This document shows, piece by piece, positions 7,554 through 27,058 of a stretch of 29,062 bases of DNA (positions are counted from its first letter, which is position 1; every line of letters starts with the position of its first letter). Origin of the DNA: a virus; the IMG/VR virus record IMGVR_UViG_3300025276_000155, positions 1 through 29,062 of that record; one strand, given 5' to 3'. A model generated the notes under the pieces. That model worked only from the letters and a program-made list of their open reading frames with translations, had not been told where the DNA came from and ran no database searches. The position numbers were made by a program, and so were the translations under genes.

Positions 7554-7934
7554 TTAGGAAACATCTAACAAGGTATCACGCTCGGCTTTGACTGAGTTAA
7601 TGATAGTTTGAATGTTATTTAAAACAGTTGAGTCGCTAGTTCGATGCGCCCTAAGTTCATCATGAATTGAGTAAGTATCTCCTACCGTGGAGACACATAG
7701 ATTATCATAGTAAGGTTTTGATAAAGCTTTAACAGCAGCCACACCGTCAGCATCTGATTTTGCAAACGCATTATCATTTAACGGATTAAGCAACGCTGCC
7801 ATTGCTGTGTCCATAGAAACGTAACCCTCTTGCCACCAATGGATGAACAAACCAGATTGCATTTTGTTTGGGTATTTAAAATCCGTTGCCGATTTGTAGC
7901 TTTCGGCATCGTATTGATATAATTTAATAGCCAT
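7554..7934 (-). CDS. Fibre-associated hypothetical protein, 126 aa
   Basis: The ATG at 7934 overlaps the stop of the RCC1 fibre gene by TAATG, and is preferred to a reading from 7958. It begins MAIKLYQYDAESYKSATDFK and has a Trp-rich FIHWWQEGYVSMDTAM block, then a helical second half. I recognise no domain. Being coupled to a fibre gene, it may be a fibre chaperone, a capping protein or a small virion part. The following gene starts three bases after its stop. Confidence 0.7.
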   Translation of the reverse strand: MAIKLYQYDAESYKSATDFKYPNKMQSGLFIHWWQEGYVSMDTAMAALLNPLNDNAFAKSDADGVAAVKALSKPYYDNLCVSTVGDTYSIHDELRAHRTSDSTVLNNIQTIINSVKAERDTLLDVS

Positions 7935-10907: not shown

Positions 10908-10950
10908 AGATCGCTCCTTTTGCAGAGTATTCTATCTAATAACTAAAAAA

Positions 10951-10963
10951 AACAACGCACAAA
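10951..10963 (-). promoter_or_regulatory. Late-strand motif copy: TTTGTGCGTTGTT
   Basis: Read on the - strand, this exact copy of the recurring TTTGTGCRTTG motif begins at the first base after the stop codon of the 1216-residue gene and is followed by a T-run and then by the fibre gene's ribosome-binding site. The motif-to-start distance is 56 bases. A promoter or RNA regulatory site is plausible; no standard -10 box is at the usual spacing. Confidence 0.4.
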
Positions 10964-13900
10964 TTAATACTTCTTATACCCAAACGCTTCACCAAGCTGG
11001 CCTGTCATAGCAGTAACAGGAATAGTGCCAGTTAAAGGCAAAATATTCCACATAGCTTGGAAGCCTTTTTTATATTCAGTATCATCGCCTAGCATTGGTA
11101 TTCCAAAATGACCAAGGGCTTCAAATGAATCTTGAATTGTAGAAGTTCCCGCACCAGTAACACCAGTTACAGCATCCATCCATTGAGGAAGCACTTGATT
11201 GTCTATGCTTTTAGCAGAAGGTTTAAACTTAGGCTGAAGACCAGTTAGCTTAGTGACAAAAGGCTCCTGCCCCATAGCAACCTGTTGCTGCATAGAGTCA
11301 TAAATGACTGTGCTATATAAAGAAGCAAGCCCACTGTAATCAAAAGCTCGCATCATCCTATCTCGCTCGTCAAGCTTGTCCCAAATATAATTAGGAACTT
11401 TAGCGTAAGCAGAAATATAACCCATACCCATAGCTGCAACTACGCCACTCACTCTATTAAGAACTGCACCAGACGTATAAGCAGCAGTTACTTTATTCAT
11501 AGAAGCAAACATAAATGAATAGAACTGAAACGGTAAGGTCATATAACCAGACTCAAGTTTAATGTAACCCTTCATAGTAGGGTCTTCTTTAAGTTTGCCG
11601 CCCCAAGGGAGAAGTTTAGCAGTGCTTGTTCTTATATAAAGAATGCCATCAGCAATTAATGGTCTGTCATTTGGAGTCGCAGAAACAATAGTATTTAAAA
11701 CACCTTGATTAGCGGCCGCTCTAAACGCTTCAGTTGTTTCTTCAGAAACCCTTATGTTACTATTAGTAGTCCATTCATTAATGTTTGCAAATAACATGCC
11801 GCCCTTACCTTGCTGGATAGGGGCTTTAGTGGCTATTTCTTTTAGCATAGCAACAGTAAGGCCATGTCTAGCTGCATACTCTATTTCAAAATCAGTAGCC
11901 CTGCCATTAGTCATATCTTTGGCAAGCGTAAGCAACTTGTGTATTCTTAACTGACCTTCCATCTGCTTGAATAACTGTGTTATTGGGCCTAAGCCGTTCA
12001 TGATATGACCAGCTTGCTTGATATTGTTCCACATACTTGCTGAGTTAACGTCATTAGTAAGGCTATCGCTTATTCTGTTAGCAATAGAGCCGTTAAACAT
12101 ATCAAGTATTTCGCCATAATCATCGCCAAACTCTCGCATGTTTTTACGAGTGTTTTTATCTGTCAGCATGTTTAATGTTACTTGCAATGTATCCATATGC
12201 TTGTTGTCCATAACGATACGAGCAAAGTCAGCCAAGGAAGCAAGGCCAGAAGTGCTGAGATAGTTAAGAGTTGTAACTTCCTTTAGTGTGTTGGCAACTT
12301 TGATGCTCATAGCTGTAGGATCGTCATAAACAGAACTCATAACTCTGCGCTGATTAGTTACCCAATTTAAACGTGCTTTGTTTATAAACTTTTCGCTGTA
12401 TCCATCTAATCTTAACTGATCCTCAATGTCATTCCACACCTTCTCAGGTGTTCGACCACCAAATGCTTTTTGAAAGTGGTATTTAGGAGCAACTCTAGCT
12501 GTATAATTCTGCATTACCATAATAGGATCAGTGTGAATGAAGTTAAAAACCTTAGAGTTTTCTATGTCTATCATTCTGTGAGCCATACGAAGGCTACCTT
12601 GAATGCCAGAAATCATATCAGGATCAAGAGGGTCTTTATCATTAACAATTTGATTATAAATGTTGTCAACATTTTGATCTATGTTTGCTGCACTTACCTT
12701 TTTACGAACAAACAATTTCTTTGTACTGTCGTAAACGGGAACAGAACCCTCAGAAGCAAAATGAGCTTTTAAAATACCTTTTATCTCAGCGGGTTTAGCT
12801 TTCATTTTTTCCACATCCCAAATGCGGTTAAAGAAAGGTTCCTTTAAATTACGGCCACTATTTTGAGTGTTGTTTATTAAGTCTAAAGCAGAATCGTAAA
12901 GAGCGCGTTCTTCCACATTGTCTTTTTTGCGCTGTTCAAACCAATCTCTAGTTCTTTGAGGTAGTTTGTCAGGCCCAGAAGTAGGCATGCTTAATCTTTG
13001 ATTAATTCTATCCATGTCTAAATCTAAGAATGCAATTTCCTGCTCAACACGCGCTCTGTTTCCAGATAAATCAGTCTGATCTATGCGTTGACCCCAAGAT
13101 TCGTAGAAACGATCATACTCTTTTATTAATCTGTCTTCATATACAGTGCTGCCGTTTTCTTTGTTAAGCCGTTTACGCATTGCTTCGCGTGTAAATTGCT
13201 CAAAGGTAACACCTGATCCGCTTACCCTACGATACATGCTGGTATAGTTCATATTGTACAAATTAGTTTTAGTAGCATTTGTATGTTCAGCAAAAGTTTC
13301 GTGAGCAACAGTATTAACTTGCTTCCAATGACGCTTCTCAACATTAGACAATGTGTAAACACTTTGAGGGTTAACCAATCCGCTAAGATTGCCTACGTTT
13401 AAACGACCACCATCGCCAGAAATTTGCATCATAGAATGTTTGAGCATACTCAAGCCACCCATTTTGTACTTACCAGTTGCCCTGTCTTTAATGGGTTTTA
13501 AATTCATTAAAGATTGGAAGGGACTTGGAAGCGGATTCCAAGCTGTAGATTTTAATCTATAGATATCAACTTGCGTACCATCTATTGTTTCATAAGTAGA
13601 ACGCTCAACTAAACGAGTAGCACCTTCTTCTGCAAATTTCTTTTTATCAGTAGCCGCTTTAATTATGTTACCTTCCATGTTTCTAATGTCATTTTCAATA
13701 TTGCTTATTCTTGCAGCACTCAATCTTCTACCTTTATTATCTACACCTGTTCTAAGGCTTTCAGTGCCAGTTCTAATGCCTTTTTCAAGGCCAGCAATTC
13801 TCTTTGTAAGACTAATTATATTGGTGTTAATATCTAAATCAGTAAAAGTTCTATATGCTCTACCAGCTTGTGCGACAACAGGAGTATCTAATTGAATAGT

Positions 13901-14614
13901 CTGCAACGCTTCAACAATATCAATACGAGCTTGGTTGTGACGATTGTTTCTTTTAGCATCAACCCAAAAATTAAAATAAGCTTTTTTACTAAGATTAATG
14001 CTGCCACCAATAGACCCGCCTAGAACAGTAGCAGCAGTCATGTTTAAAACAGAGCCTTCTATAGTAGCATTTACGCCACTTAAATGACGCAAGCTTTCTT
14101 CTCCAGCACTTACAGCAAAGTTACTTATAGCCGCGTTACCAACAGCAGCTAAGAAAGTAGGAGCTTTAAAAGCTAAAATTCCCGGGACCATTGCAGTCAT
14201 ATCAGCAGGAGCCGCGAGTAATGCCGTTGCCCATGTAGAATTTTGGTAGTTATTAATTCTAATTTCTTCTTCTTTAGAAAAGTTATGCAAGAAATTAAAA
14301 TGATCTTCGCTTACTGCGCCTTGAACATTCCCCCAATGTTGAGGCTCAACATCGTTCTTATGTTCCCACACATTGAAATTTTCATCTTCTCCCAACCCAG
14401 AAGACCAAGGCAAATGATAAGTAGCACCGACAAGTAAATCAACTTGGTGATTAAAGTTGTCCTTAACTAAAGTTGTCCACTCAGTTCTTTCTTGAAGAGG
14501 TCTAGATTGAGTGCCACCAGCATAAGTTATTTGATCTGCGAATCCTACCGTAGAGGGTGGAGCAACAGGGTTTAAAAACTTTTGAGCATCATTACTAAAC
14601 TTTAACTGATCCAT
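10964..14614 (-). CDS. Large internal virion protein, gp16-like (1216 aa)
   Basis: Its position, last of three genes between the tail tube and fibre genes, and its size match T7 gp16, which is ejected to help build the DNA channel across the cell envelope. Residues about 125-200 contain several hydrophobic helices (for example TALLAAPADMTAMVPGILAF and VLNMTAATVLGGSIGGSINL), and further ones occur near the C-terminus, fitting membrane insertion. Long charged helices fill the rest. I did not see the lytic transglycosylase signature present in T7 gp16. It starts with a TAATG overlap on the preceding gene. Identity rests mainly on size and gene order. Confidence 0.7.
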   Translation of the reverse strand: MDQLKFSNDAQKFLNPVAPPSTVGFADQITYAGGTQSRPLQERTEWTTLVKDNFNHQVDLLVGATYHLPWSSGLGEDENFNVWEHKNDVEPQHWGNVQGAVSEDHFNFLHNFSKEEEIRINNYQNSTWATALLAAPADMTAMVPGILAFKAPTFLAAVGNAAISNFAVSAGEESLRHLSGVNATIEGSVLNMTAATVLGGSIGGSINLSKKAYFNFWVDAKRNNRHNQARIDIVEALQTIQLDTPVVAQAGRAYRTFTDLDINTNIISLTKRIAGLEKGIRTGTESLRTGVDNKGRRLSAARISNIENDIRNMEGNIIKAATDKKKFAEEGATRLVERSTYETIDGTQVDIYRLKSTAWNPLPSPFQSLMNLKPIKDRATGKYKMGGLSMLKHSMMQISGDGGRLNVGNLSGLVNPQSVYTLSNVEKRHWKQVNTVAHETFAEHTNATKTNLYNMNYTSMYRRVSGSGVTFEQFTREAMRKRLNKENGSTVYEDRLIKEYDRFYESWGQRIDQTDLSGNRARVEQEIAFLDLDMDRINQRLSMPTSGPDKLPQRTRDWFEQRKKDNVEERALYDSALDLINNTQNSGRNLKEPFFNRIWDVEKMKAKPAEIKGILKAHFASEGSVPVYDSTKKLFVRKKVSAANIDQNVDNIYNQIVNDKDPLDPDMISGIQGSLRMAHRMIDIENSKVFNFIHTDPIMVMQNYTARVAPKYHFQKAFGGRTPEKVWNDIEDQLRLDGYSEKFINKARLNWVTNQRRVMSSVYDDPTAMSIKVANTLKEVTTLNYLSTSGLASLADFARIVMDNKHMDTLQVTLNMLTDKNTRKNMREFGDDYGEILDMFNGSIANRISDSLTNDVNSASMWNNIKQAGHIMNGLGPITQLFKQMEGQLRIHKLLTLAKDMTNGRATDFEIEYAARHGLTVAMLKEIATKAPIQQGKGGMLFANINEWTTNSNIRVSEETTEAFRAAANQGVLNTIVSATPNDRPLIADGILYIRTSTAKLLPWGGKLKEDPTMKGYIKLESGYMTLPFQFYSFMFASMNKVTAAYTSGAVLNRVSGVVAAMGMGYISAYAKVPNYIWDKLDERDRMMRAFDYSGLASLYSTVIYDSMQQQVAMGQEPFVTKLTGLQPKFKPSAKSIDNQVLPQWMDAVTGVTGAGTSTIQDSFEALGHFGIPMLGDDTEYKKGFQAMWNILPLTGTIPVTAMTGQLGEAFGYKKY

Positions 14615-17600
14615 TAGTCTGCCCCCATGCCAAAAATATCGCGAAGTGTATCAGGGAAACCTCTAACTTCATTAGCCATTTCGTGAAATTTTTGAGTCTC
14701 CCGCAGTCTATCAGTTAAAGATTCTTTATCTAAAACGTAGTAAGCTCCATTAAAAAATCTATTAAAATTAACATCACCCACTTTCATATTTTTCTGTCTA
14801 ATAAAGTTAGTCATTTGCGCCTCAAAAACTAATGACTGTTGAGACATTTTTGTTTGTGAAAGATCACTTACTGCATTGACCCAATCAAACGCAACCGTGT
14901 CACCATACATATTTGATGGGAACAATTTCTGAACTTCTCGCTCACTAAAATCATCTTGACTCAAGACACCATTGCCGTCTTTTAATTTGTTAACATTAAA
15001 CTCCATTAATTTCTTTGTTATTGGATGATCTTCCCAACCCACAGGAATAGGCTCTTGTTGACGTCTTACAAAGTCATCTCTAGTTAAGCCAGAGCCACCA
15101 AAATCAATGTCTTTAGATTCACTAAATCTAGTCCATTCAGCCTCTAACAGTGTTTTCTTTTCTACAAAAGTTTTTCTGTTGTCTATTAGCTGCCTGTTAA
15201 AGTTTCGAAATTCTGCGTCAGAAGGATTAATAATAACTGCTGATCCGTCTGGTCTTCTATAAATTTCAGGACCACCAGATTTGCCAGAAATGTGAAGAAC
15301 CCAAATAGGATTATCAGCCGTGGAGTTAGGATGCGGCACAAGATCAGCACGTTGTTGTTTAGTTCCTGATGTTTTATTTTGCCATTCAATAAGGGTTAAA
15401 CTTCTTGTTGCATTGCCTTCTAAATAATACTCTTCGTTTACACTTGTTAGCATGTCATCTGAACCGCCCATAGGCAACGAAGCTACCATTTGCCCTGCAA
15501 GATTACTTGGCACCTTAGTGTCTAAAATAGGCGAAATATTATTTTTTCCATCTTGAACTAATATTGAATTAACAAACGCATTAACGCCTTGCATAACAAC
15601 TGGTGGCTGAGAGTCTAAAGACAATCCTGCAATCATTTGACCAGTAAGTTCGTTTGCCTCTAATGTAGTGCGAGATCGAATAATGTGTTGATCAAAAAAA
15701 GCTTTCATATGATTGCCATACTCTTCTTTTTCAAACCCTAATCCCATTCCCTGTCTTGTATTTAAATAACCTCTGGCATAATCAAGAAAATCGTCACGTA
15801 AGCCTGCCTTTCCTGATATATCGTATTTGCCTGCAAGAAGAACATTTGTCATTTCAATGATAGAACCGTAATCCTTATTAACCCCAACGCCAGCGTAAAG
15901 ATCAATATGGGTGGCAAGACTTATATTTCCGCTAATTATTTCAGCTTTAACTTTACCAATATTTTTAACTTGATCATCTGTAAGAGCATACTGGCCCTCA
16001 AAAAGAGCCATAGCATCAAGCGCACCTCTTGTAGACTCTTTCAAGCCTTTCAGGTCAGTAACAATAATTTCACCAGTATCTAAATCATATGACCTAATAT
16101 TTTTCCACAATTCAACCATAGCAGTAACTTCATTACTATTTAAGTCGAGGTTTGCTACAGCATTATTAAGCGAATTAACAACATCGGCAGGAATCATCTT
16201 ACGCTTGTTTGCAAGTATTGTACTTATATAAGCACCAACTTGTGCTTGTTCTCTTTCAGGATCAGTTAAGGATTCACCTTTTCGCTCTCTAGTATACATG
16301 CGTAAATACTTAGCTGAATTATAAAGATAATCTTCAGGAGGGGCTTTGCCATCCAACAAAAGCTTTGATAATTCTTGACCATATTTTGTTGGAGTCATGT
16401 CGCTAGTCATTGGATAAGTTGAATCAAGAACACCCCTTTCCATTTCAAATTTCTCTTGTCTTTCTTCCTGTAACTTAATGAGTGTTAATTTGTCATTAGA
16501 TATTGTTTTCCAATGCTCTCTTAAAGATTTCTGACTACTGGTTTGATAGCCGTTTAAAGCTAAAGCAGCGTTAATAGTCAAAGCAATGCCTGAGTCTTTC
16601 TCACCTAAATTAGATGTGTCGCCATTATTAATAGCATTCATAATCATTGAAACCTGACCAGAATTTTCAAGATCATTAGTTATAATAGTAAGTTTTTTCA
16701 GGGCTAATTCATGGCTTAGAAACTGTTTAAATTTACTTAACTCTTCTGGTTTAAGTTCCTTTGCAATCTGCTGTCCTATTTCAAACAGACTAACTCTTTT
16801 TTGAAAATTACTTTGTAGTTCTGAATCTTCAAATTGCTCATCTGGACCCGATCCAACAGGATCAAATGTCGATGTTGGCAAAGGAGCTTTTGGATCAAGC
16901 ATTTGAATAAGATCAATATAAGCTTGATCAGCTTCAACTTGAGTCCTTGCTTGAGATATTTGAGCCGCGCTTACAGTTTCAACTTGTCCAAATGCAAGTG
17001 TAGCTTGCTCACCTTTAGCCTTACGCCTTTTTTCTCTTTCATTAAAAGCTGCCGTTTGTTTTGTCTGAAAGTTAAGAGCGATTGTTTTCTTTTTATCTAG
17101 GCTTAATTCTTGAGAAACAGTTTTTAGTTGTATGAGTTCATTAATGCCAGATTCTGTATTAAATCTTCCACTTAAAAAATCTGTTGCTTGACCAGTTGTT
17201 AAAACTGACACAACGTCACTCATTTCATTAGGCGTAAATTCTTGTATAGCAGTCATGTCTCCAAGCAAACTAACAAGCTTAGATTCGGTATGTCCCTTTT
17301 GTAGTTCAGCAAAAAAATCAGGATGACTATCTTCAGTAATCCCCTTATTATTTAGTTGAGATATGACTTCTCTAAGAGTTGTGTCTACATTGTGAATAAA
17401 TGATCCATCTTCATTAGGTCCACCAGCGCCAACAAACTGACCGCCAGTTTGACTAGAGACACTATTTACAATTCGATCACCGTTAAGTTTTAAATAGTCA
17501 TTTTTAGACTCAGCTATTAATTCTCTTTGCTTATCAATAAACTTTTGTTGGTTTGTAAAAAAGCCATCTAAGGAAAGACCATCTATACTAGAGTCTGCAT

Positions 17601-19179
17601 AAATGTTTAATCCTTGATTTCCATTTAATGAACCACCACCATTTTTCTGAGACATAACAGATATAACACGGCCACTTATTAAGTCGGCTCTAAAATCATT
17701 AAGTGCTTCAGCATTTTCTTTTGGTGTTGCGTCTGGATCAAGAGAGAATTGTGTAATAGCGCGTTTCTGCAATCCTTGCTTAAATTGCTTTTTAAGTTCT
17801 ACTAATTCACTGCGCAATGTAGCAATGGTAGCTACGCCAGCCTCTGTGTTTGCAACAATTCGTCCTGTACTACCAAGCCGCCGTTCGTTTTCTGCAAAAC
17901 CAGTTTCGTACTGAGTAATTTGTGTTTCCAGAGCGTTAATTTTCTTAACAGCATTAGTTTGTAAGTCAGAAAATTTACCAGTTGTTGCAGCAACTCCAAC
18001 AGAATTAGATGTAACTAATGCACCAGCATCAATAACTACTTTTTGAACTGCCATTTCTCGTGATTGAGACGCTCGTATATTAGCTTGATCTTCAAAAGCA
18101 ATAGCTTGATTAATAAGTGAAACTGCTGACTTAGACTCTGGAGCTATTTCATTAACTAAAGAAGCCCTTTCATCAACAGTTAAATTCTGCAATCCAGAAA
18201 GAATTGTATTTAAATGCCCAGCATTTCTAGAATTAACTTTTGCTATCTCGCTATGAGGATTCATTAACAAATTTAAAATAGATGAAATTTGCTCAACACC
18301 CTCAGCAGACTCACTCTGTATGGTTACAAGAGTTTCTAATTGCCCAGCAACATATGACAAATGAACACTGCGCGATCCTTTAACAGAAGCCTTATAAGCT
18401 TTTAAAGTTAATTCCTGTGGATCGCCAGTTTCTTCAGAAGCAGCAGAGGCAATAGCCTCAGAAGTAGAAGCATCTAAAGAACCAGTTACCGCACTAGATT
18501 GATGAAAAGGAGTAAACTGTGTTGTAGAACTGTTTGTATCCTCTATAGCACTGGATTGCCCTAAAGCTTGAGCGGCACTAGCTAAATTAGAAAGATGTTT
18601 TGCAGCATCGTCTTTTACTTTTTGGCGTCTTCTTGCTTCCTGAGAAGCAAACAATGAAGCTTTACGACTAGCTAGAATTAAAGCCCCGTTGTCAGTTGCA
18701 GTTCCAACAAATTCAGCAGGGACTTGCTCAGCAACTTTAGCAACATAGTCTGACATTAATGTTTCATATTGCTGCACAGAGTTAGGTTGACCATCAACCT
18801 TAGCAGATATAACTCCAGATCGTTCTTGCAAATCACTTTGAATAGAAGTCTCAAAGCGTTTGCTCATATGTTGTTGGTAAGCTTTTCTTTGAATAGAGCC
18901 TCCCATTGAAAACAAACTTGCGCCTTCAAGCCTAGCATGAGGATCTTTCTTTCCATCAGCACCAGTAGCGTAAAGTTCATCTTGGCCTATAGAGCCAGCC
19001 ATTTCAATTCCACGCTCTTCGGCTTTAGCTGCAGCGCGTTTAAATAAAATATCGCTAAATTGATTGGCTCCACGCTGAATTGCTTCAGCGGTAATTTGAC
19101 CAGCTTGGCTTTGACGAGCTACACCAACATTTCCAATTTTAAAACTTCTTGTTGATTTGACAACTTTTACAGGTCGCAT
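14614..19179 (-). CDS. Very large internal virion protein, gp15-like (1521 aa)
   Basis: The 1521-residue product is rich in long charged and Gln-rich helices, without membrane spans or enzyme motifs that I can see. It begins MRPVKVVKSTRSFKIGNVGV, and residues 30-140 hold an Ala-rich helical part. It sits between the gp14-like and gp16-like genes, as gp15 does in T7, but is about twice T7 gp15's length. The ATG lies only three bases after the stop of the gp14-like gene and in the same frame. Ejection with the genome is inferred from order. A role as an unusually large inner-core protein is the best guess. Confidence 0.7.
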   Translation of the reverse strand: MRPVKVVKSTRSFKIGNVGVARQSQAGQITAEAIQRGANQFSDILFKRAAAKAEERGIEMAGSIGQDELYATGADGKKDPHARLEGASLFSMGGSIQRKAYQQHMSKRFETSIQSDLQERSGVISAKVDGQPNSVQQYETLMSDYVAKVAEQVPAEFVGTATDNGALILASRKASLFASQEARRRQKVKDDAAKHLSNLASAAQALGQSSAIEDTNSSTTQFTPFHQSSAVTGSLDASTSEAIASAASEETGDPQELTLKAYKASVKGSRSVHLSYVAGQLETLVTIQSESAEGVEQISSILNLLMNPHSEIAKVNSRNAGHLNTILSGLQNLTVDERASLVNEIAPESKSAVSLINQAIAFEDQANIRASQSREMAVQKVVIDAGALVTSNSVGVAATTGKFSDLQTNAVKKINALETQITQYETGFAENERRLGSTGRIVANTEAGVATIATLRSELVELKKQFKQGLQKRAITQFSLDPDATPKENAEALNDFRADLISGRVISVMSQKNGGGSLNGNQGLNIYADSSIDGLSLDGFFTNQQKFIDKQRELIAESKNDYLKLNGDRIVNSVSSQTGGQFVGAGGPNEDGSFIHNVDTTLREVISQLNNKGITEDSHPDFFAELQKGHTESKLVSLLGDMTAIQEFTPNEMSDVVSVLTTGQATDFLSGRFNTESGINELIQLKTVSQELSLDKKKTIALNFQTKQTAAFNEREKRRKAKGEQATLAFGQVETVSAAQISQARTQVEADQAYIDLIQMLDPKAPLPTSTFDPVGSGPDEQFEDSELQSNFQKRVSLFEIGQQIAKELKPEELSKFKQFLSHELALKKLTIITNDLENSGQVSMIMNAINNGDTSNLGEKDSGIALTINAALALNGYQTSSQKSLREHWKTISNDKLTLIKLQEERQEKFEMERGVLDSTYPMTSDMTPTKYGQELSKLLLDGKAPPEDYLYNSAKYLRMYTRERKGESLTDPEREQAQVGAYISTILANKRKMIPADVVNSLNNAVANLDLNSNEVTAMVELWKNIRSYDLDTGEIIVTDLKGLKESTRGALDAMALFEGQYALTDDQVKNIGKVKAEIISGNISLATHIDLYAGVGVNKDYGSIIEMTNVLLAGKYDISGKAGLRDDFLDYARGYLNTRQGMGLGFEKEEYGNHMKAFFDQHIIRSRTTLEANELTGQMIAGLSLDSQPPVVMQGVNAFVNSILVQDGKNNISPILDTKVPSNLAGQMVASLPMGGSDDMLTSVNEEYYLEGNATRSLTLIEWQNKTSGTKQQRADLVPHPNSTADNPIWVLHISGKSGGPEIYRRPDGSAVIINPSDAEFRNFNRQLIDNRKTFVEKKTLLEAEWTRFSESKDIDFGGSGLTRDDFVRRQQEPIPVGWEDHPITKKLMEFNVNKLKDGNGVLSQDDFSEREVQKLFPSNMYGDTVAFDWVNAVSDLSQTKMSQQSLVFEAQMTNFIRQKNMKVGDVNFNRFFNGAYYVLDKESLTDRLRETQKFHEMANEVRGFPDTLRDIFGMGAD

Positions 19180-19182
19180 TAG

Positions 19183-19650
19183 TTACCCCCCCTGCTTTGC
19201 TGCATTAGAATAAGTCTCAGCAAAATTCATTATGCCAGTAGCCATTGTAGTAAACGCTCCAATGTTAGCCGCAGTTTTTCTTGCGTAACCTTCTTCAATA
19301 ACAACTCGTCGTTGAGACTTAGTTTTATACATATTAATTTCGCCTTGAGTCATTATTGCGTAAATGTCTTCGCCAAGAATTTCTTTATCAGCCTCTAATC
19401 TAGCTTGAGTCGAGGCACTGTTAACATTTCCAAACGCGCTAAAGACTGCATTATTAGCAGCCATTGCTAAGTCATATTCTTTTCTGCGTGTGTTTTCGTT
19501 AGCAGCAGCCATTGCGCCTTGGATTACGACTTCTGTTTGAAGATCATAAGCTTGCGCCATTGCATTTTGCAATGCAACTTCACCTTGTTTTTTCTGCGCT
19601 TTAGCAGAAGCCGCAGCAAACGATAGTCCTAAGAATGCCTCTATACTCAT
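19183..19650 (-). CDS. Internal virion protein, gp14-like (155 aa)
   Basis: The protein begins MSIEAFLGLSFAAASAKAQK and is Ala-rich and helical throughout, with further blocks EVALQNAMAQAYDLQTEV, NAVFSAFGNVNSASTQARLE and a hydrophobic TAANIGAFTTMATGIMNF. This composition and its location directly after the gp12-like gene match T7 gp14, which inserts in the outer membrane during DNA ejection. It is somewhat shorter than T7 gp14. Its TAA stop is followed in frame by one codon and the ATG of the next gene. The start overlaps the gp12-like stop by TAATG. Confidence 0.75.
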   Translation of the reverse strand: MSIEAFLGLSFAAASAKAQKKQGEVALQNAMAQAYDLQTEVVIQGAMAAANENTRRKEYDLAMAANNAVFSAFGNVNSASTQARLEADKEILGEDIYAIMTQGEINMYKTKSQRRVVIEEGYARKTAANIGAFTTMATGIMNFAETYSNAAKQGG

Positions 19651-21890
19651 TAGATTATTAACTCCGCAGTTATGCCATTGACTTGAAATGACAAAGGTTC
19701 GTTTTGAGTCATTACAACTTGAGGGTCTCGACTGTAGCCAAGAAGTCTAAATTCTTTCTTTCCAGTAAAAGAGGAATCAGTTGTCAAAGGTATATTATTC
19801 AAAGATATTGATCTAGTTTCCAACAAATCGCAAACTACAGTTGCAATTCCTCTTGGGGTTCCAGTTACAGGGCCAATAGGAAGCTGAACATCAATAGGGT
19901 TGGTAGTTATATTAACTGTAAATTTGTAACCTATTTCAGCAGTTGCGTAAGTTTCATTGTATTCTGCTAAAGAAATAGATGTATTTGCTATAGTGTGAGT
20001 TCCAAGATAATCCTCTCGACCAGAAGAAGTTTTGCCAATAACATGAACCACAGTGCCGTTAGCAAAGTCACTTCCAGTAGATGCAGATTTTGTGCTTACA
20101 GAATAAACCTTACTGTTATCTAAATGATGAGTAGTAATAAATTCACACAAACGAAGATTAACATCGTCAAACCAAACACTAGCAAACAAACGATCATCAA
20201 CAGCAACGACAGATTCAAAAGAACCTTGCGTTGTAAATCGAGTCCACCCTGCACGTTTTTCCGCTCTGTTTGATCCAAAAACAGCACACTCACCATTAGT
20301 AGAAGTAAACACACTATAAGATTCTGCTTCTTTAAATGCACCATTTACAACAGAAATATCTTTAAAGTTATCTATCATATGAGAAGCAATAGTAGAAACA
20401 GCCGTAGAGGTATAAGCATCTTCACTGTCAGTATATAAGTATTCTCTTACAACTTTACTTCCAGCTTGAACAAAAACAGTTGCTCCATCTAAAGGCGTTG
20501 GTCTTACAAAGTCGCAACCAAAAGGAGTCTGTTTTCTAATTTGTGCATTTGTAGGAGTAATCGCTTGATTCAAAAATGTAGGAACATACAACTCAGCAGA
20601 AACAGTAAACACCTGTAAATCTCTGTCAGACACAAGATAACGAATTGCATTAACATCACCTGTTGCAGCAATTAAATTAATAGATTCATCATCCTCACCC
20701 TCGCCTACATCAAAGTTAAAAAACTCAGATGACTTACTAAACCAAAGACTATCTGGCTCAGCTAAAGTTCCTGCAAAAACCAAACGGTTTTCGTGAAAAG
20801 TAACAGCAGCAGGATAGCCACGCTTTTCAGAGAAAGCTTGTTCGTTCCAGTTGGTAGTTGGATTGTGAGTAGAAACCTTTACATAACCACCACCATCTTC
20901 ATCGGAAGTAGCAGCAGCACCCGCAGTAATAGTAAAAGTGTTGTTGTCTATAATAGTTCCTACAGTTCTAGCTCCGTTTAAATTACCAACAGCAATTCCA
21001 CCAGTAGCAGAAGCGTCACTAAAAGTAAGAGACTCACCGCCAGAATAACCGTGACCAACATTTGTAACCTCTACAACAGTGCTTCCCGTAATTGTGCGAA
21101 ACGGATTAAGTACGTTAAGTTTTTGAATTAAAGTATCAACAATACTTGCATTAGCTACAGTTGCACTTTGTATTGTGTTGATAAGTATTTCTGAAGTGCC
21201 ATAGCGCACCCTTACGCCCACATGCTTAGAATCAGGGAACGTACCATTAGAAATAGAACCTGTAGTGTCCCAGTAAGCCGCTGAGGTAGTAACAGTAATA
21301 CCAGTTCCGCTTACAGCAGAAGGATCAAGAGTAACGTCAGTAGGGTGAAAGACGGAATAAGGTTGATAAGTTTCTTTATTGTCAGAGCGAGTATCAAACG
21401 AAAACACTCTTATTTCAAAATCAGTAAGGCTTGTTCTAACAAGCATCCGAGGCATAAACAACGGATGGCAAATAAACATAGTATCGCCAACTTGAGCAAA
21501 CGTATATTGATACAAGTATGAGTCACTAAAAGGCAAAGCCGCTTCATCTACATCTTGCGTAATTGTTTCAACTAATGAAATTGTAGATTCAGATTCCACT
21601 CTAAAGCATCGAACTTTAGCATTTTCTATTGAGATAATATATCTTTCATCATCTGAAAATATAAAAGACTCAAGTTTATTTTGCATAACTTTGCCTGAAG
21701 CTTTAGTAATGCCAAAGTTATAAATGTTTTTTAAGCCAGAGCGTTTCATTGCTCCACCTTCGGCTCTAACAACTACATTTTCTAATCGTTGAGCAGAAGA
21801 CGCATAAATTGGAGTATCAATTCTAGAAAGCGTAGAAGGACTAACCTCACCAAATTGGAAGCTATTAACTGGAACTCTATATTTTCGCAT
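19650..21890 (-). CDS. Tail tubular protein B (gp12-like nozzle)
   Basis: The 746-residue protein has the gp12-like N-terminus (VNSFQFGEVSPSTLSRIDTP, then VVRAEGGAMKRSGLKNIY), followed by a beta-rich body and the typical RGYPAAVTFHENRLVFAGT and SLWFSKSSEFFNF blocks. At about residues 275-335 sits an inserted segment (HGYSGGESLTFSDAS, TITAGAAATS) of the FCCH type, originally named in ubiquitin-activating enzymes but common in phage tail proteins. The protein forms the tail nozzle below the gp11-like ring. It overlaps both neighbours by TAATG, keeping the tail operon tightly coupled. Confidence 0.87.
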   Translation of the reverse strand: MRKYRVPVNSFQFGEVSPSTLSRIDTPIYASSAQRLENVVVRAEGGAMKRSGLKNIYNFGITKASGKVMQNKLESFIFSDDERYIISIENAKVRCFRVESESTISLVETITQDVDEAALPFSDSYLYQYTFAQVGDTMFICHPLFMPRMLVRTSLTDFEIRVFSFDTRSDNKETYQPYSVFHPTDVTLDPSAVSGTGITVTTSAAYWDTTGSISNGTFPDSKHVGVRVRYGTSEILINTIQSATVANASIVDTLIQKLNVLNPFRTITGSTVVEVTNVGHGYSGGESLTFSDASATGGIAVGNLNGARTVGTIIDNNTFTITAGAAATSDEDGGGYVKVSTHNPTTNWNEQAFSEKRGYPAAVTFHENRLVFAGTLAEPDSLWFSKSSEFFNFDVGEGEDDESINLIAATGDVNAIRYLVSDRDLQVFTVSAELYVPTFLNQAITPTNAQIRKQTPFGCDFVRPTPLDGATVFVQAGSKVVREYLYTDSEDAYTSTAVSTIASHMIDNFKDISVVNGAFKEAESYSVFTSTNGECAVFGSNRAEKRAGWTRFTTQGSFESVVAVDDRLFASVWFDDVNLRLCEFITTHHLDNSKVYSVSTKSASTGSDFANGTVVHVIGKTSSGREDYLGTHTIANTSISLAEYNETYATAEIGYKFTVNITTNPIDVQLPIGPVTGTPRGIATVVCDLLETRSISLNNIPLTTDSSFTGKKEFRLLGYSRDPQVVMTQNEPLSFQVNGITAELII

Positions 21891-22474
21891 TAGCTACGCC
21901 TTTGCGCTTTAAATCTTGATGTATTTAACTTCTTTGTTGTTTGCTGTTGAGAGTGCAAACGTCTAGCTTGCATCATTTGCATTTGAGATTTTTGATCCAT
22001 CATTTGAGAAAGTGCCTGATCTCTAGCAACAGAAGTTGCAAGAACAGCCGCCATTGTATACTCAACAGCAACTACAAAATAAGGAGGCCAATCAGATTCA
22101 TCAGCCCTAAACACAAAGTCAGCAATTAACACTTCGTTTATGCCAGAGTCACAGTAAACTTTACTACCATAAGTATCATAATTAATAGCAAAGCCATTAA
22201 CTGTAACCGCATTAAGCAATAAAACAGAAGAAGGTAATTGGTAGGCCGCAGAAAAGCGACCAGATGGTGAGTCGCTTAATCTAGCTAACATTTCTTGATT
22301 AGTAGAAAACCGCCATCTACAATTAGTCAAAGCGGCTCTTGCTATATCTTCATACATTGCTCCCGCAACAGTAGCTTCAGATGAACCGTCAGTAAAAGAC
22401 GAAATGGGGCTACCGCCAATTAACAAAGATGCCCTTGAGCAAATTTTAACTGCGGTGTTTGCTATTGATGCCAT
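21890..22474 (-). CDS. Tail tubular protein A (gp11-like adaptor)
   Basis: The 194-residue product has the T7 gp11 pattern: an N-terminal helical part beginning MASIANTAVKICSRASLLIG, then GSPISSF, a CRWRFSTNQEMLARL block, a beta-rich central YQLPSSVLLLNAVTVNG, and a C-terminal helix rich in Gln and Arg. It forms the adaptor ring between portal and tail nozzle. No good ribosome-binding site precedes the ATG; a GC-rich hairpin ends nine bases upstream, so translation may be limited or depend on RNA structure. The gp12-like gene follows with a TAATG overlap. Confidence 0.85.
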   Translation of the reverse strand: MASIANTAVKICSRASLLIGGSPISSFTDGSSEATVAGAMYEDIARAALTNCRWRFSTNQEMLARLSDSPSGRFSAAYQLPSSVLLLNAVTVNGFAINYDTYGSKVYCDSGINEVLIADFVFRADESDWPPYFVVAVEYTMAAVLATSVARDQALSQMMDQKSQMQMMQARRLHSQQQTTKKLNTSRFKAQRRS

Positions 22475-22482
22475 TCAATGAG

Positions 22483-22502
22483 TGGGGGGCCGAAACCCCC
22501 CA
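22483..22502 (-). terminator. GC-rich hairpin after the capsid block (possible attenuator)
   Basis: A seven-base-pair stem (TGGGGGG / CCCCCCA) with a six-base loop fills the gap between the 89-residue virion protein and the gp11-like gene. In the late direction it is not followed by a T-run, so it is not a standard intrinsic terminator; in the other direction TTCCTTTT follows. T7 carries its Tphi terminator at the equivalent place. It could reduce transcription of tail genes relative to capsid or protect the capsid mRNA 3' end. Confidence 0.5.
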
Positions 22503-22508
22503 TTCCTT

Positions 22509-22778
22509 TTAATCGCCATCGGTGTTGGTAATGGCAACGCCATTTACAACATCGACTGCGGTAGCTGTGCTGGCATTAACATATGTGTGACCAACAACAG
22601 GTGTACCACCTGTAGAGGTAACAGTCATAATAACATCATTCAGATTAAACATATTAGCTGAACTGTTAAAATAACCAGCAGTGTTAACATCGGCAATGGT
22701 ATCTGCCGTTGAGTAATGCCAGAAGGTAAAGCCCGAACCGCCAGAAAGGCGAGTTAGGGAAGTTGAGGTGTAAGCCAT
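22509..22778 (-). CDS. Small virion-type protein after the capsid gene, 89 aa
   Basis: AAGGAG precedes the ATG. The product begins MAYTSTSLTRLSGGSGFTFW and is rich in Thr, Ser, Val and Asn, with alternating beta-strand patterns (NDVIMTVTSTGGTPVVGHTY) and no membrane span. Its place directly downstream of the major capsid gene and before the hairpin suggests high expression, as expected for a capsid decoration or head-stabilising protein. I recall similar small proteins beside phage capsid genes but cannot name a family, so the decoration role is inferred. Confidence 0.65.
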   Translation of the reverse strand: MAYTSTSLTRLSGGSGFTFWHYSTADTIADVNTAGYFNSSANMFNLNDVIMTVTSTGGTPVVGHTYVNASTATAVDVVNGVAITNTDGD

Positions 22779-22790
22779 TAATCAGTCTCC

Positions 22791-23603
22791 TTATCCGTTG
22801 TTATCAAGAACTTCATAAATGCCTTCGGACTCAATAACGACAGCCCCCATAGACATCATAGAAGTACACAGGTGAGAGACTTTTTCAGCCACATAGTTGA
22901 CCTCAGTAGTAACGTCAGCGTTAATACCAAGCCCAAGCGAGGAAGTATGGTAAGCAAAGTTTTTGCCACCAGCTACCGCAGAGGTTGAGAAAATCTTAAA
23001 TCCAAGAAACTCTTTCATGGTCATTCCACCAGCGAAAGGAAGGTTCTGAGAACCAACATAGTCAGAAGATGCAAACTCTTCGATAAGGAATAAGTCAGCA
23101 AATCCTTTTGGATTCATTGCAAGGTAACGATCTCCGTCTTCTGGAATGTCAGCAATGCCCATTGTTTCAAACAAAGAAAGCATATCAGCTTTGACAAGCG
23201 CACTAGAAGCGTCATTGATCTGAGTAGAACTTGCACCAGCATCCATCGCTGCAACCAGAATTTCATCTGTCTTGCGACCAAGCGCGGCGGCAGCAGACTT
23301 AGCTACGGCTTGACGCTCGTTAATGTTGGTCTTCAATTCATCCAGTTTATCAATGTACTCGGCAGCATAAAAGTCAGCCATTGTGACTTCTACGTTGCTG
23401 TGCGTCAGTTCCATAGGAGTAACTGAACCATTGCGGGATTTAGTAGTGGCAGAGCCAGTGCCAATCTTTTGGAATCGAGCAACCGAAGCTGAAACATTAG
23501 ATGTACGAACAGTATTCCGCAGTTTGGAACCCATGCGTTGGTACGCCAAATGAACTTCAGATTCAAACTGCTTGATAAAGGCAAGGTCGATTGTATTAGC
23601 CAT
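22791..23603 (-). CDS. Major capsid protein (HK97-fold, gp10-like)
   Basis: The 270-residue product shows the pattern of compact HK97-fold capsid proteins: an N-terminal helix (AFIKQFESEVHLAYQRMGSK), a strand-rich E-loop region (VARFQKIGTGSATTKSRNGS), the spine helix with NINERQAVAKSAAAALGRKT, and a C-terminal half containing DRYLAMNPKGFADLF, GFKIFSTSAV and VSHLCTSMMSMGAVVIES. AAGGA precedes the ATG after a 77-base leader with a repeated GGATACC. Upstream lie the scaffold and a gp13-like gene; downstream lies a small virion protein. It forms the icosahedral head. Shorter than T7 gp10A, with no sign of a frameshifted minor form. Confidence 0.88.
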   Translation of the reverse strand: MANTIDLAFIKQFESEVHLAYQRMGSKLRNTVRTSNVSASVARFQKIGTGSATTKSRNGSVTPMELTHSNVEVTMADFYAAEYIDKLDELKTNINERQAVAKSAAAALGRKTDEILVAAMDAGASSTQINDASSALVKADMLSLFETMGIADIPEDGDRYLAMNPKGFADLFLIEEFASSDYVGSQNLPFAGGMTMKEFLGFKIFSTSAVAGGKNFAYHTSSLGLGINADVTTEVNYVAEKVSHLCTSMMSMGAVVIESEGIYEVLDNNG

Positions 23604-23680
23604 TTCAAGAGTCCTTATTAAAGTTAAACGCTAACGGGTATCCGTCTTTAAACTTCAACGTAGGTATCCAAATGGGCTAC
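23604..23680 (-). promoter_or_regulatory. Capsid gene leader with two GGATACC repeats
   Basis: This 77-base gap is one of the longest in the late arm. On the coding strand GGATACC occurs twice (23663-23669 and 23637-23643), each followed by a similar AT-rich stretch containing GTTTAA or GTTTAAA. A ribosome-binding site AAGGA precedes the ATG. A promoter or mRNA leader that boosts capsid expression is likely on grounds of gene dose, but I see no standard -35/-10 pair. Confidence 0.35.
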
Positions 23681-24184
23681 TCAGTGCATGACAGGCCGTG
23701 ATATGAGACTGTCAACATTATTATCATCAGACTTGCAACGCACAAAATGTAGTATCTCACTATCTTTACTTAAAAAGATTGGTTCAAACTCTAAATATGC
23801 AAGCCATTGTAAGATCATGCTGCTTTCCGTCCACACATCGCAGCTTATTTGATCGTGAAATAAATGATAGTAACCTATTAGATCAGGTGAAGCCCTTGCG
23901 AACCTAATCCAGTTTTGCCTCATGTTCTTAGAGAACAAAGCCCACATCTGAGCTTCATTAGATATTCCCGTAATAGCCAAAGGCTCGTCACCTTTAACTA
24001 CTGCGTAAACCATTTCATCTTTTTCTTTAAGGCACTCAAGTAAACACTCTAAAGGATCAGACTCATATAGGTCAGAAAATTCTCTTACGTTTTCATCGCT
24101 AAGGTTTTCTAAAAAAGGAAAGATATGGGCTGGCTTTAGCTTAACCAAATCCAACCCATGTGATTTTAAAATAGAATCAGCCAT
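23681..24184 (-). CDS. gp13-like/GNAT-type protein between scaffold and capsid genes
   Basis: The ATG at 24184 overlaps the scaffold stop by eight bases and is preferred to the reading from 24232. The 167-residue product (MADSILKSHGLDLVKLKPAH...) contains MVYAVVKGDEPLAITGI and a later ESSMILQWLAYLEFEPIF, the strand/helix order of GNAT-fold proteins; T7 internal virion protein gp13 is of similar size and has been linked to that fold. No clear acetyl-CoA loop (Q/R-x-x-G-x-G/A) is visible, so catalytic activity is doubtful. In T7 gene 13 lies after gene 12, not here. Identity is tentative. Confidence 0.5.
   Translation of the reverse strand: MADSILKSHGLDLVKLKPAHIFPFLENLSDENVREFSDLYESDPLECLLECLKEKDEMVYAVVKGDEPLAITGISNEAQMWALFSKNMRQNWIRFARASPDLIGYYHLFHDQISCDVWTESSMILQWLAYLEFEPIFLSKDSEILHFVRCKSDDNNVDSLISRPVMH
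23736..23746 (-). promoter_or_regulatory. Late-strand motif copy: TTTGTGCGTTG (upstream of capsid gene)
   Basis: This exact copy lies within the 3' end of the gp13-like gene, about 133 bases before the capsid ATG, on the coding strand. A GATAATAAT stretch follows 14 bases after TTGTGC and is -10-like. It could drive extra capsid expression, as capsid promoters within upstream genes do in other phages. Confidence 0.4.
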
Positions 24185-24932
24185 ACAAAGATTTAAACCC
24201 TGCATCAACTTGAGCAATAAAGTGACGATCACGCTTGGCTGGATTATGATACCTTTCGTCCTGCATCATTTCAGTCAAAGCCTGTGAGTTTAAGCCACTG
24301 GTTTGAGAAGTAGCCTCAGAGAAAGAACCATCTTTCATTTCTCTCATAATATGCTCAAGAGCAATTATTCCCTCATGTGATTCACACATTCGCTCTATTG
24401 CTGGTATAGCTTCAGCAGGAAAGAATTTAGTAGCAAAAAGGTTTGCTGATTCAATCCGTGTACTAGAGTTTTCCCCAAGCTTTGCTGCTTCTGCTTCAAG
24501 ATCAGAACTAGAATCATTGCCAACAGATTGAGCATACATTTCAATGCCCTTCTCAAACTCTTCTTGACCAAAGCCATTTTCAAATGCGTGAGCAGACCAC
24601 CAAGAAAGAAGTTCATTCTCTTCAGAAGAATCTACAGTATCAGGCAAAACATAATCATTAACGCTTTCTGGCCTGTCCTTAAAAGCTTCCGTTTCTATTT
24701 CGCCCATGATTGATTTACGCAAGTCTTCTTCTTTAGTGCCAAGCTTTGATTCAAGCTCCTTGTAAGCTTTAGCTAAATCATCGGAAGTTTTATACTTACC
24801 AAGTAATAACTCTTCGGATTGTATTTCTTCATCAGACTTAAAAATAGGATCGCCAGTAGACTCAGTGTTTACACTACCTTCAGTGCTTACGGATTCTTCT
24901 GCTGGTGCTTCTGTTATGAAACTTTCACTCAT
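24177..24932 (-). CDS. Scaffolding protein (gp9-like)
   Basis: The 251-residue product is very acidic and mostly helical, starts MSESFITEAPAEESVSTEGS, has a YKTSDDLAKAYKELESKLGT helix at about residues 46-65, and ends in a basic-plus-aromatic tail (YHNPAKRDRHFIAQVDAGFK) suited to bind the inner capsid surface. Acidic N-terminus, basic C-terminus and its place before the capsid gene are typical of T7-like scaffold proteins, which guide head assembly and then leave. It overlaps both neighbours by a few bases. The family match is good on composition and order. Confidence 0.82.
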   Translation of the reverse strand: MSESFITEAPAEESVSTEGSVNTESTGDPIFKSDEEIQSEELLLGKYKTSDDLAKAYKELESKLGTKEEDLRKSIMGEIETEAFKDRPESVNDYVLPDTVDSSEENELLSWWSAHAFENGFGQEEFEKGIEMYAQSVGNDSSSDLEAEAAKLGENSSTRIESANLFATKFFPAEAIPAIERMCESHEGIIALEHIMREMKDGSFSEATSQTSGLNSQALTEMMQDERYHNPAKRDRHFIAQVDAGFKSLYG

Positions 24933-25192
24933 TTTTTGCTCCTATGTGCGTGTGCTATTCTCTGATCTATAAGTGCAGAAATGTATCTCTGGCCTTCGTG
25001 ATGCCTGAGTGCTTCTGTAGTTACCTCTGGCCCATGAACCATTTGTATAGTTATAGACTTTAAGTAATTTAAAACTGATTGGCCTGTAGGCGTAGAAAAA
25101 AGTTCCGCTACGTCTAAGCTAATTTTTACATCACTTGCTTTTGACCTCTGTATGCCATCGACACCAATGTTAACTGGGGTTTTGCCCTTCAA
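24929..25192 (-). CDS. Bbp19-like small phage protein, 87 aa
   Basis: Translation starts at a TTG (25192) with AGGAG seven bases upstream, inside the end of the portal gene (23-base overlap). The product has ISLDVAELFSTPTGQSVLNY, then MVHGPEVTTEALRHHEGQR and ISALIDQRIAHAHRSKK. The order LF-x-T-x-x-G-x-x-VL followed by an EG-R motif and a basic helix matches small Bbp19-type proteins found beside phage portal and scaffold genes. Function is unknown; a role in head assembly is inferred. It overlaps the scaffold start by four bases. Confidence 0.65.
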   Translation of the reverse strand: MKGKTPVNIGVDGIQRSKASDVKISLDVAELFSTPTGQSVLNYLKSITIQMVHGPEVTTEALRHHEGQRYISALIDQRIAHAHRSKK

Positions 25193-26741
25193 CTGGTTGC
25201 TCCTGTGGTTGCCCTTGCTGCTGCGCCATTTGCTGCTGCGCCATTTGCTGCGCCATTGCAGTCATAGCCTTACGTTCTTCTTCATCGCGAATCAAGGACT
25301 CAGGAACACCAAACTTTTTAGCAAGGTGAACTGCTGTCTCTTCACTATCAATAAGAATCTGCAACATTTCTGGGCCAAAAGTGCTGCCAATGAGTTCTAA
25401 GAACCTAGCAACAGTACCAATGTCTTGATTTGATTGGGCTTGTGCAAGCGGAGAAGAAGAGCGAATCTTAATTTCACGACCATTAACTTGAGGAACCTCA
25501 ATGCGACCTTGCTTTTTAAGTATATAGATTACACGTTGCAAGACAGGCTGTACTAATTCCGCTTGCAAACGCCCAAAAGCTGCACCAATGCGACGAGAAA
25601 GATCAGCCATACGCTCCGCAACTTCTGTAGCAGAGGCAGGGGTTTTATCAGGATTGCCAAGCATGTCGCTATACAAAGCACGTTTAATATTTAAACGCAT
25701 ATCCGACAAAACAAGCTGGGCAACATCAAAATTACCAGCCGCTTGTAATGGTTGCAAACCTTGACTGCCCATAGCTTTCGGTATGATTGATCCGGGAACT
25801 AAGTTTATCGTGTCAGGGTTGATTACACCATCATCATCAACTTGGTATATGCCAGCAATAGACATTTGAGCGTTCTCAAGGATTAGCTCAATAGTGAGGT
25901 TAGTAGTTTTAATTGCAGAAAGTGCGTTAATTAAGGGGCCGCGTCCATATACTTCACCAGCGCACTTGCTCCAACGAAAACATATAAAAGGATTAGAGCC
26001 AAGACCAACCATTTCCTTAGTGTGAAGTATAGTTTTAGTGGTTAGGCAAACAGCATAGTGATAATAGACCTCTTCATTTGGCCTATCGTAATTTCTACAA
26101 ACAATCTCAAGTACAGTTGTGTCACGATCAGAACCCATTTGCTTTAGAACTTGAGGGTCAAACGTAGACTTAGGGTACATAACCTTCAATGAATCAAAGG
26201 GTATCTTCTTTCTCTCACGAAAAACGTGATCAATCTTGTCATCTGGGCCCGTATCTAAAACAACATGAGGCAAAGGAATAGCAGTAAAGTTAACTGGGTT
26301 AACTGAATCCCCTTCCTCAACGCACAAAACACCAGTACCTACCGCTAAATCCATGAAGGATTCGTGGACTTCTTGGCTAAAGTTAGAGTTTTGCAGTATT
26401 TCAAACACGTAATCAGTAACAGCATCTAACTCATTATCAATTTCATCGCGCTCTTCTTCTGGCACTTCACTACCAGACATAAGATCAGCCCATCTAGCAA
26501 AGTTAGGAACAAGGCCAGATTGAAGCCGACTAGCAAATTCTTGCACACCAACAACAGCCGTTTCGTCAAAGATTCTATCGTCTCTGCGCTGACCAGCTTC
26601 CTCTTGGTAAAAAGATTCACGCATAGGAAGCGCGTACTCATAGCATTCTTCAAACAGAGGAACCCAATTTTCACGAAACGCTTTTGCCTTTTCATATCGC
26701 TTTATCTTACTAGCGACCAAAGGATTCTTGTTATATTCCAT
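25170..26741 (-). CDS. Portal protein (head-tail connector, gp8-like)
   Basis: The 523-residue product is the T7-type head-to-tail connector. It starts with a helical stretch (YEKAKAFRENWVPLFEECYE), has FASRLQSGLVPNFARWADL, a MDLAVGTGVLCVEEG block, FICFRWSKCAGEVYGRGPL, and SATEVAERMADLSRRIGAAF. These are the conserved blocks of this family. Twelve copies form the ring through which DNA is packaged and to which the tail attaches. The C-terminus is Gln/Met-rich, encoded by a short tandem repeat. It overlaps the preceding gene by TAATG. A TTTGTGCGTTG motif occurs within codons for LCVE. Confidence 0.9.
   Translation of the reverse strand: MEYNKNPLVASKIKRYEKAKAFRENWVPLFEECYEYALPMRESFYQEEAGQRRDDRIFDETAVVGVQEFASRLQSGLVPNFARWADLMSGSEVPEEERDEIDNELDAVTDYVFEILQNSNFSQEVHESFMDLAVGTGVLCVEEGDSVNPVNFTAIPLPHVVLDTGPDDKIDHVFRERKKIPFDSLKVMYPKSTFDPQVLKQMGSDRDTTVLEIVCRNYDRPNEEVYYHYAVCLTTKTILHTKEMVGLGSNPFICFRWSKCAGEVYGRGPLINALSAIKTTNLTIELILENAQMSIAGIYQVDDDGVINPDTINLVPGSIIPKAMGSQGLQPLQAAGNFDVAQLVLSDMRLNIKRALYSDMLGNPDKTPASATEVAERMADLSRRIGAAFGRLQAELVQPVLQRVIYILKKQGRIEVPQVNGREIKIRSSSPLAQAQSNQDIGTVARFLELIGSTFGPEMLQILIDSEETAVHLAKKFGVPESLIRDEEERKAMTAMAQQMAQQQMAQQQGQPQEQPVEGQNPS
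25215..25256 (-). repeat. Tandem 15-nt repeat coding MAQQQ units in portal C-terminus
   Basis: Two identical 15-base units (25215-25229 and 25230-25244) and a third lacking one CTG triplet (25245-25256) stand in tandem. On the coding strand they give MAQQ, MAQQQ, MAQQQ. The loss of exactly one codon suggests slippage with frame kept. It lengthens the disordered portal tail. Confidence 0.8.
26318..26328 (-). promoter_or_regulatory. Late-strand motif copy: TTTGTGCGTTG (inside portal gene)
   Basis: An exact 11-base copy on the coding strand, within codons for L-C-V-E of the portal protein. It has no nearby gene start, so it may act at a distance, be a chance coding match, or mark a site of another kind (for example packaging or protein binding). 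Confidence 0.3.
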
Positions 26742-27001
26742 TAGCCAAACCTATTCAAATAACCTTGACCACCACCAGCACCGCTATACAAAGAGCGGCG
26801 ACCTTTGCCTCCACTGCCAGAACCTTTAGAGGTTTTAGCATCTATGGCTGCGGTAATATCTTCACGCTTGGTATTAGCTTTTTTTTCAATCTCTCTTCGC
26901 TTAGCGTCTTCTGCCTGTATTCTAGCTGCGGCTGCGGCTTTGTTGGCATCTTCACTTACAGCGGGTGGGGCTACAACGACTTTAGGTTTTGGAAAGCACA
27001 T
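26741..27001 (-). CDS. MCFPKPK-start small protein upstream of the portal, 86 aa
   Basis: The ATG at 27001 is chosen over a start at 27031 because AGGAG lies just upstream. The product begins MCFPKPKVVVAPPAV, then a charged Ala-rich helix (about residues 18-55), and ends in a Gly/Ser-rich basic tail (SGSGGKGRRSLYSGAGGG). Short proteins beginning MCF and placed just before the portal gene occur in several podoviruses, in my memory, with unknown function. No signal peptide or membrane span is seen, although the N-terminal Cys is notable. It overlaps the portal start by TAATG. Confidence 0.7.
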   Translation of the reverse strand: MCFPKPKVVVAPPAVSEDANKAAAAARIQAEDAKRREIEKKANTKREDITAAIDAKTSKGSGSGGKGRRSLYSGAGGGQGYLNRFG

Positions 27002-27045
27002 GTTTATCTCCTTTTGAAGACTCAGAATCACAACTTGAATTAATT

Positions 27046-27058
27046 AACAATGCACAAA
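27046..27058 (-). promoter_or_regulatory. Late-strand motif copy: TTTGTGCATTGTT
   Basis: Read on the - strand, the motif begins at the first base after the terminase stop codon and lies 57 bases before the MCFPKPK gene start, mirroring the copy before the fibre gene. It differs from the other three copies by one base (A for G). An AT-rich stretch and CAAAAGGAG follow, as at the fibre gene. Confidence 0.4.

Follow-up and report, generated by a model that had tools for sequence, protein, structure and literature searches.

Putative activator-dependent late promoters in an uncultured marine phage group and an HTH_3 protein as their candidate regulator

The sites of lambda CII are direct TTGC repeats that flank the -35 region, and they control lysogeny. 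The site of P2 Ogr is centred near -55, and the MotA box of T4 middle promoters lies near -30, about 12 bp from the -10 region, and requires AsiA. The present work concerns a recurrent element in a stretch of 29,062 nt, IMG/VR record IMGVR_UViG_3300025276_000155 (positions 1–29,062; the whole stretch is called the window), from an uncultured marine bacterial virus. The element is an 11-base motif, TTTGTGCRTTG, on the late coding strand, and it is probably, with some reserve, the upstream half of late promoters that would be served by a phage-encoded HTH_3 activator bound in a class II position.

The motif in the window and in relatives

An exact search of the window for TTTGTGCRTTG returned four matches, each of them on the - strand (10953–10963, 23736–23746, 26318–26328, and 27048–27058), the positions given in an earlier note made by reading this DNA. 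The rarity claimed there, far below one expected copy, was borne out, as 0.09 copies are expected by chance and 100 dinucleotide shuffles gave a maximum of two, with none reaching four. The enrichment is limited to the exact or near-exact word: up to two mismatches give 22 matches in the window vs. 23.2 by chance, and the sole match with one mismatch is the partial copy that the note had seen on the opposite strand near 20540 (20540–20550, +). The two copies described as intergenic (27048–27058 and 10953–10963) each begin right after a stop codon, and the copy placed about 130 bases before the capsid gene is 133 nt from the capsid ATG, inside the preceding gene.

Three of these copies look functional and make up the putative system described here. 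The site A copy (TTTGTGCATTG; 27048–27058, -) follows directly on the stop codon of terL, the gene for the large terminase subunit (27059–28582, -), and a copy with at most one mismatch follows terL in 106 of 127 terL loci. The site B copy (TTTGTGCGTTG; 23736–23746, -) is located within the 3' end of the gene preceding the capsid gene, with its synonymous positions frozen in 60 of 67 candidate segments. The capsid (major capsid protein-like) gene downstream of it (22791–23603, -) owes its name to the earlier note and to gene order and shares 80–94% identity across relatives. The site C copy (TTTGTGCGTTG; 10953–10963, -) stands directly 3' of the stop codon (10964) of a 1216-aa internal-virion-protein-like gene and upstream of the tail-fibre gene (9978–10907, -; PHROG tail protein, E 1e-12). 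The fourth match of the earlier set, in the portal gene (26318–26328, -; VLCVEE codons), was judged a coding coincidence outside the system, because it recurs in only 3 of 137 distinct homologous portal segments and its codons vary freely; moreover, no TG box follows it.

Relatives of terL are plentiful in IMG/VR, and terL relatives also occur on metagenome-assembled genome (MAG) contigs with mixed labels. The loci first fetched gave 128 late-strand matches and none in reverse, six reverse matches in + oriented pieces of the window itself not being counted. In further sets of relatives, it was confined to one strand per contig apart from one stray in G021, and a near-complete contig usually carries three to five, all in one orientation. 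The equivalent places are D, after the small terminase gene (terS); A, after terL; B, before the capsid gene; and C, after the internal virion gene, with an additional site E before terS in some lineages. The refuting condition set in the earlier note, absence of the motif from such places in related genomes, did not hold, as dozens of contigs have it there. Relatives at about 75–80% identity in terL keep the motif (L452, L453, L454, and L463); none was found in those at 67% or below, nor in Hodr, the nearest phage record (64% in TerL). The terL tree shows several losses of the motif at site A. In G015, an identical altered word (TTTGTAC) occupies both sites B and C, which suggests that one factor reads several sites. 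In the literature, the motif word was met only in unrelated papers, and no paper on this system was found.

The site B copy lies in coding sequence and was compared codon by codon across relatives. The motif codons show almost no synonymous drift (TTT 62/62, GTG 60/61, CGT 62/62), and the valine codon GTT ten codons downstream, at positions 31–33 counted from the first motif base, is kept in 56/56. The base just outside the motif varies (TGC 59, TGT 5), and the constraint at site B, judged from these frozen motif codons beside a variable neighbour, is on the DNA and not on the protein. Chance recurrence or codon coincidence, which accounts for the portal copy, is therefore already contradicted for the other three by the shuffles, the equivalent places in dozens of relatives, and the frozen codons of site B, and as an explanation of the whole set, it is extremely improbable.

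Anatomy of the putative promoters

The motif bases were numbered 1–11, with counts running on downstream. At site A, an alignment of 33 diverse relatives has T2 T3 G4 T5 G6, T9 T10 G11, and T29 G30 invariant, while the spacer keeps its length except for one aligned gap in one row and varies freely in sequence. A total of 126 non-redundant sites were sorted into five classes (A–E) by simple sequence patterns, with approximate class edges, and a TG starting at 28–31 was found in 111 of them (A 50/54, B 22/26, C 12/17, D 17/17, and E 10/12) against a background of 0.14–0.24 per class for any four-base window. An A stands at position 44 or 45 in 108/126. The final TTG of the motif most plausibly opens a -35 hexamer, and with the -35 taken as 9–14, A45 falls at the expected +1, so that the A at 44/45 is the predicted start. 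A sigma-70-type promoter has a -35 of the form TTGNNN, a -10 region approximately 17 bp away, and +1 approximately 6–7 bp after it; the 126 sites agree with this layout in having TTG at 9–11 and, at near-fixed distance, the second box and the A at 44/45. In class E, ACA occupies 12–14 in 12/12 sites, and the motif continues as the TTTGTGCGTTGACA type, which makes a full TTGACA, a perfect -35. The class E sites are without A at 45, and their transcription may therefore start elsewhere.

The starts of the downstream genes differ between classes. Those of the A and C genes lie mostly at 56–64, behind a Shine–Dalgarno sequence. In several D genes, the ATG falls at 45/46 and no clear Shine–Dalgarno sequence precedes it, as in leaderless mRNAs, and this placement is fitting for a +1 that would be the A of the ATG. 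The D gene of G001, G014, L017, and others (M[SA]R[FY]...PE) was observed to have its ATG at the predicted +1.

In the window, promoter A is proposed at 27014–27058 (-) from the alignment of relatives, with the motif at -44 to -34, the -35 from its TTG, the TG at motif positions 29–30 (27030–27029), the predicted +1 at A27014, and the next gene's start codon at 27001. Promoter B, that of the capsid gene, is proposed at 23702–23746 (-), with the TG at 23717–23716, the predicted +1 at A23702, and the capsid ATG at 23603. Promoter C, that of the tail-fibre gene, would occupy 10919–10963 (-), with the predicted +1 at A10919 and the ATG at 10907. The earlier note held that there is no shared -10 box at fixed spacing; the aligned relatives reveal one, which in the window is seen at two of the three sites. 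Of the readings considered, its suggestion of a late promoter or activator site has the strongest support, from the conservation at equivalent places, the restriction to the late strand, the TG box at fixed spacing, and the conserved A at the expected +1.

An alternative is an element acting in RNA, either a nut-like antitermination site (linear box and hairpin) or a signal for RNA processing or translation. Short hairpins follow the linear motif at some sites, and the longest stem averages 7.7 at C vs. 5.2 (sd 0.5) in shuffles and 6.3 vs. 5.5 (sd 0.2) at A. Yet the pairing at site A in the tested register equals the expectation from column make-up, with no compensatory changes in favour of a nut-type hairpin, and what is conserved downstream is sequence at a fixed distance rather than pairing. 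The Rfam search of the window was empty. Masking of the ribosome-binding site by the spacer in read-through transcripts was likewise no stronger than in shuffles at A (mean fraction 0.57) and suggestive only at C (n = 7, mean fraction 0.24). An RNA-level role is thus considered very unlikely. The stretch from motif to tail-fibre gene at site C of some relatives (G002 30502–30560, G004 8576–8635) can form strong hairpins over the Shine–Dalgarno sequence, which might silence read-through RNA but not promoter-born RNA.

Joint loss of the HTH_3 gene and the sites

The 84-aa HTH_3 (XRE) protein encoded in the early operon (512–766, +; TTG start as listed) is likely, from its distribution, the late-gene regulator and is the candidate trans-acting factor. 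It matches Pfam PF01381 above the cut-off (E 1.3e-8, 35.2 bits vs. a cut-off of 23); all seven HTH_3 proteins match PHROG 4836, 'CII-like regulator' (best E 4e-8), and no close relative of the 84-aa protein was found among 50,697 phage records. The early region of G008 is without the HTH_3 gene of the motif-bearing genomes and keeps both its neighbours, which in the window are an 88-aa gene (334–600, +) and a 114-aa gene (875–1219, +; presumably nuclease-like), both retained in relatives without the HTH_3 gene. In the same genome, the intergenic regions of A and C are deleted, site D has lost the motif and retained its second box, and site B has one synonymous base changed; at site B, relatives lacking the HTH_3 gene have a synonymous GTT in place of the motif's GTG codon.

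This joint loss extends beyond one genome. All 16 contigs with G008-like neighbours are without the HTH_3 gene and without an exact TTGTGCRTTG, three of them being 29–31 kb long, and the motif is present in 12/12 contigs that bear the gene and in 25/26 HTH_3-bearing contigs of a separate search. Other lineages without the gene (L409, L418, and L437/L438) lack the motif at D, and L438 lacks site A too. In 64 combined loci, the D/E motif (at most one mismatch) was found in 42/54 with the HTH_3 gene and 0/10 without it. When approximately 50 core families were compared, one overlapping antisense frame being set aside, only the HTH_3 gene and the tail-fibre gene were present in all 10 near-complete genomes with the motif and in none of the 3 without it.

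This comparison bears on the possibility that an alternative host sigma factor or a phage-encoded specificity factor reads the motif as its promoter box, the HTH_3 link being incidental. A non-palindromic, single-strand motif including a -35-like TTG would suit such a box, and phage sigma-like factors are sometimes hard to recognise. However, host factors leave the joint loss of gene and sites unexplained, the HTH_3 and tail-fibre genes alone track the motif among the core families, and the sites before terS carry the full sigma-70 hexamer TTGACA, so this explanation is judged unlikely. The 84-aa protein is preferred as candidate trans factor over the phage polymerase suggested in the earlier note. 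A promoter for a single-subunit phage RNA polymerase is contiguous over approximately 23 bp and comes with a polymerase gene. The element here is bipartite over about 45 bp, and a search confined to the early part of the window met no open reading frame of polymerase size, neither the sequence absent from the window nor the other genomes being covered. A further reading, also unlikely, is that the HTH_3 protein is a promoter-specificity subunit instead of a classical activator and recognises the -35 in place of the host sigma factor; host polymerase and HTH_3 protein would then together read a new promoter code, TTTGTGCRTTG and the TG-containing -10 region, at all late promoters.

Other candidate regulators were set aside. 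The 69-aa HTH gene (4709–4918) occurs in the window, G001, G004, and G006 and also in contigs without the HTH_3 gene, but it was not found in G002 or G003, which bear the motif. The 122-aa winged-helix gene (4911–5279) was not matched in any of the compared genomes. The gene next to site D, at first a candidate regulator, is taken by its position to be the small terminase. Kinship and the terL stop codon confound a suggestive covariation between an HTH_3 recognition-helix residue and motif base 1 (E with A in 6/7, V with T in 14/15).

In the mechanism favoured here, that of a phage-encoded activator, the TTG of the last three motif bases would start the -35 hexamer for a bacterial-type (sigma-70-like) polymerase, and the activator is predicted to bind the preceding eight bases (about -44 to -37), from where it would contact polymerase in the class II position, its site abutting and overlapping the -35 of weak promoters. 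The TG-containing -10 region would come next, and transcription would start at the A some 45 bases downstream of motif position 1. The late gene blocks (terminase, genes after terL, capsid, and tail fibre) would have one promoter each, and they would be turned on after early expression has produced the activator, most likely the 84-aa protein.

The same sites could be late promoters at which the HTH_3 protein is a repressor delaying late transcription in the fashion of Cro/CI. Its best PHROG and NCBIfam relatives include repressors, and a site overlapping the -35 suits repression as well. However, losing a repressor should leave promoters intact, and yet whole promoters go with the gene, as the A and C promoters have vanished and the D motif is lost including its -35 TTG; the weak -10 regions also fit activated promoters. 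Repression is therefore rather unlikely, though the least unlikely of the alternatives.

Several observations weigh against the activator reading. Activation instead of repression is itself a step drawn from the position of the site and the loss of whole promoters. The loss of the HTH_3 gene is concentrated in one well-sampled clade, so that independent events are few, and independent contrasts gave three supported pairs in which the motif changed in the same direction in 2.3 on average and never in the opposite one, which is not significant. In the main clade without the gene, site B is a single base off the motif, and L438 has one exact TTGTGCATTG, in the early region and at no late site. 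Of the 54 relatives with the gene, 12 are without the D/E motif, though A and B are kept where covered. At the promoters themselves, the -10 hexamer is not near TATAAT but degenerate (TTACGA, TARGG, TGCTAT, and others), site C is mostly without T33, base 1 of the motif at A often coincides with the final base of the terL stop, and the class edges are imprecise. The window's site C copy has no TG at 28–31 and is the weakest of its three proposed promoters.

Some features around the sites were noted in passing. L012 (428–490) and L018 (444–490) have two copies of the D motif separated by an inserted stretch with CGCTAAAGCGTTCCACTG, an arrangement that resembles a small insertion or repeat. G-rich conserved blocks flank the small terminase gene, with GGGGGGTGGGGGGAAAA after terS (G001, G008, G064, and others) and GGGGGGAGAGAGGGAGAGGGGGG before it (class E contigs), and these could be a packaging site. 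In the tail-fibre region, a 677-aa late protein (7934–9967, -) has repeats that by eye resemble RCC1 propeller repeats.

Comparison with known systems

An uncultured marine phage group thereby gains a testable late-gene switch, with its sites, predicted starts, and a candidate protein, and if the activator reading is true, the HTH_3 protein is the likely switch for the production of new virus particles. Joint loss of regulator and sites is also a means by which sequence data alone can match a phage regulator to its promoters. The sites share one orientation upstream at several late places that are putative promoters, and a phage-encoded DNA-binding protein tracks them, in few independent events.

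The likeness to lambda CII lies in a small phage HTH protein, a site that includes the -35 region, and weak promoters activated by the protein (presumed here); the difference is a single 11-bp word at or just upstream of the -35, at several places and before late structural genes. Mu C and P2 Ogr are alike in that one phage activator (a candidate here) serves several late promoters on one strand, but they belong to other protein families with other site designs, the site here being centred near -39. T4 middle promoters, with a MotA box and an extended -10, share the upstream phage box, a TG-containing -10 region, and the host polymerase, whereas the spacing here is longer and the start of the -35 is kept. 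HTH_3 (XRE) regulators such as RstR and the Cro/CI-like proteins are of the same fold family as the candidate regulator; those are mostly repressors, and the protein here would be a late-promoter activator. The system thus appears to belong with phage activator-dependent late promoters, with a combination of box, its place, and protein family that is its own.

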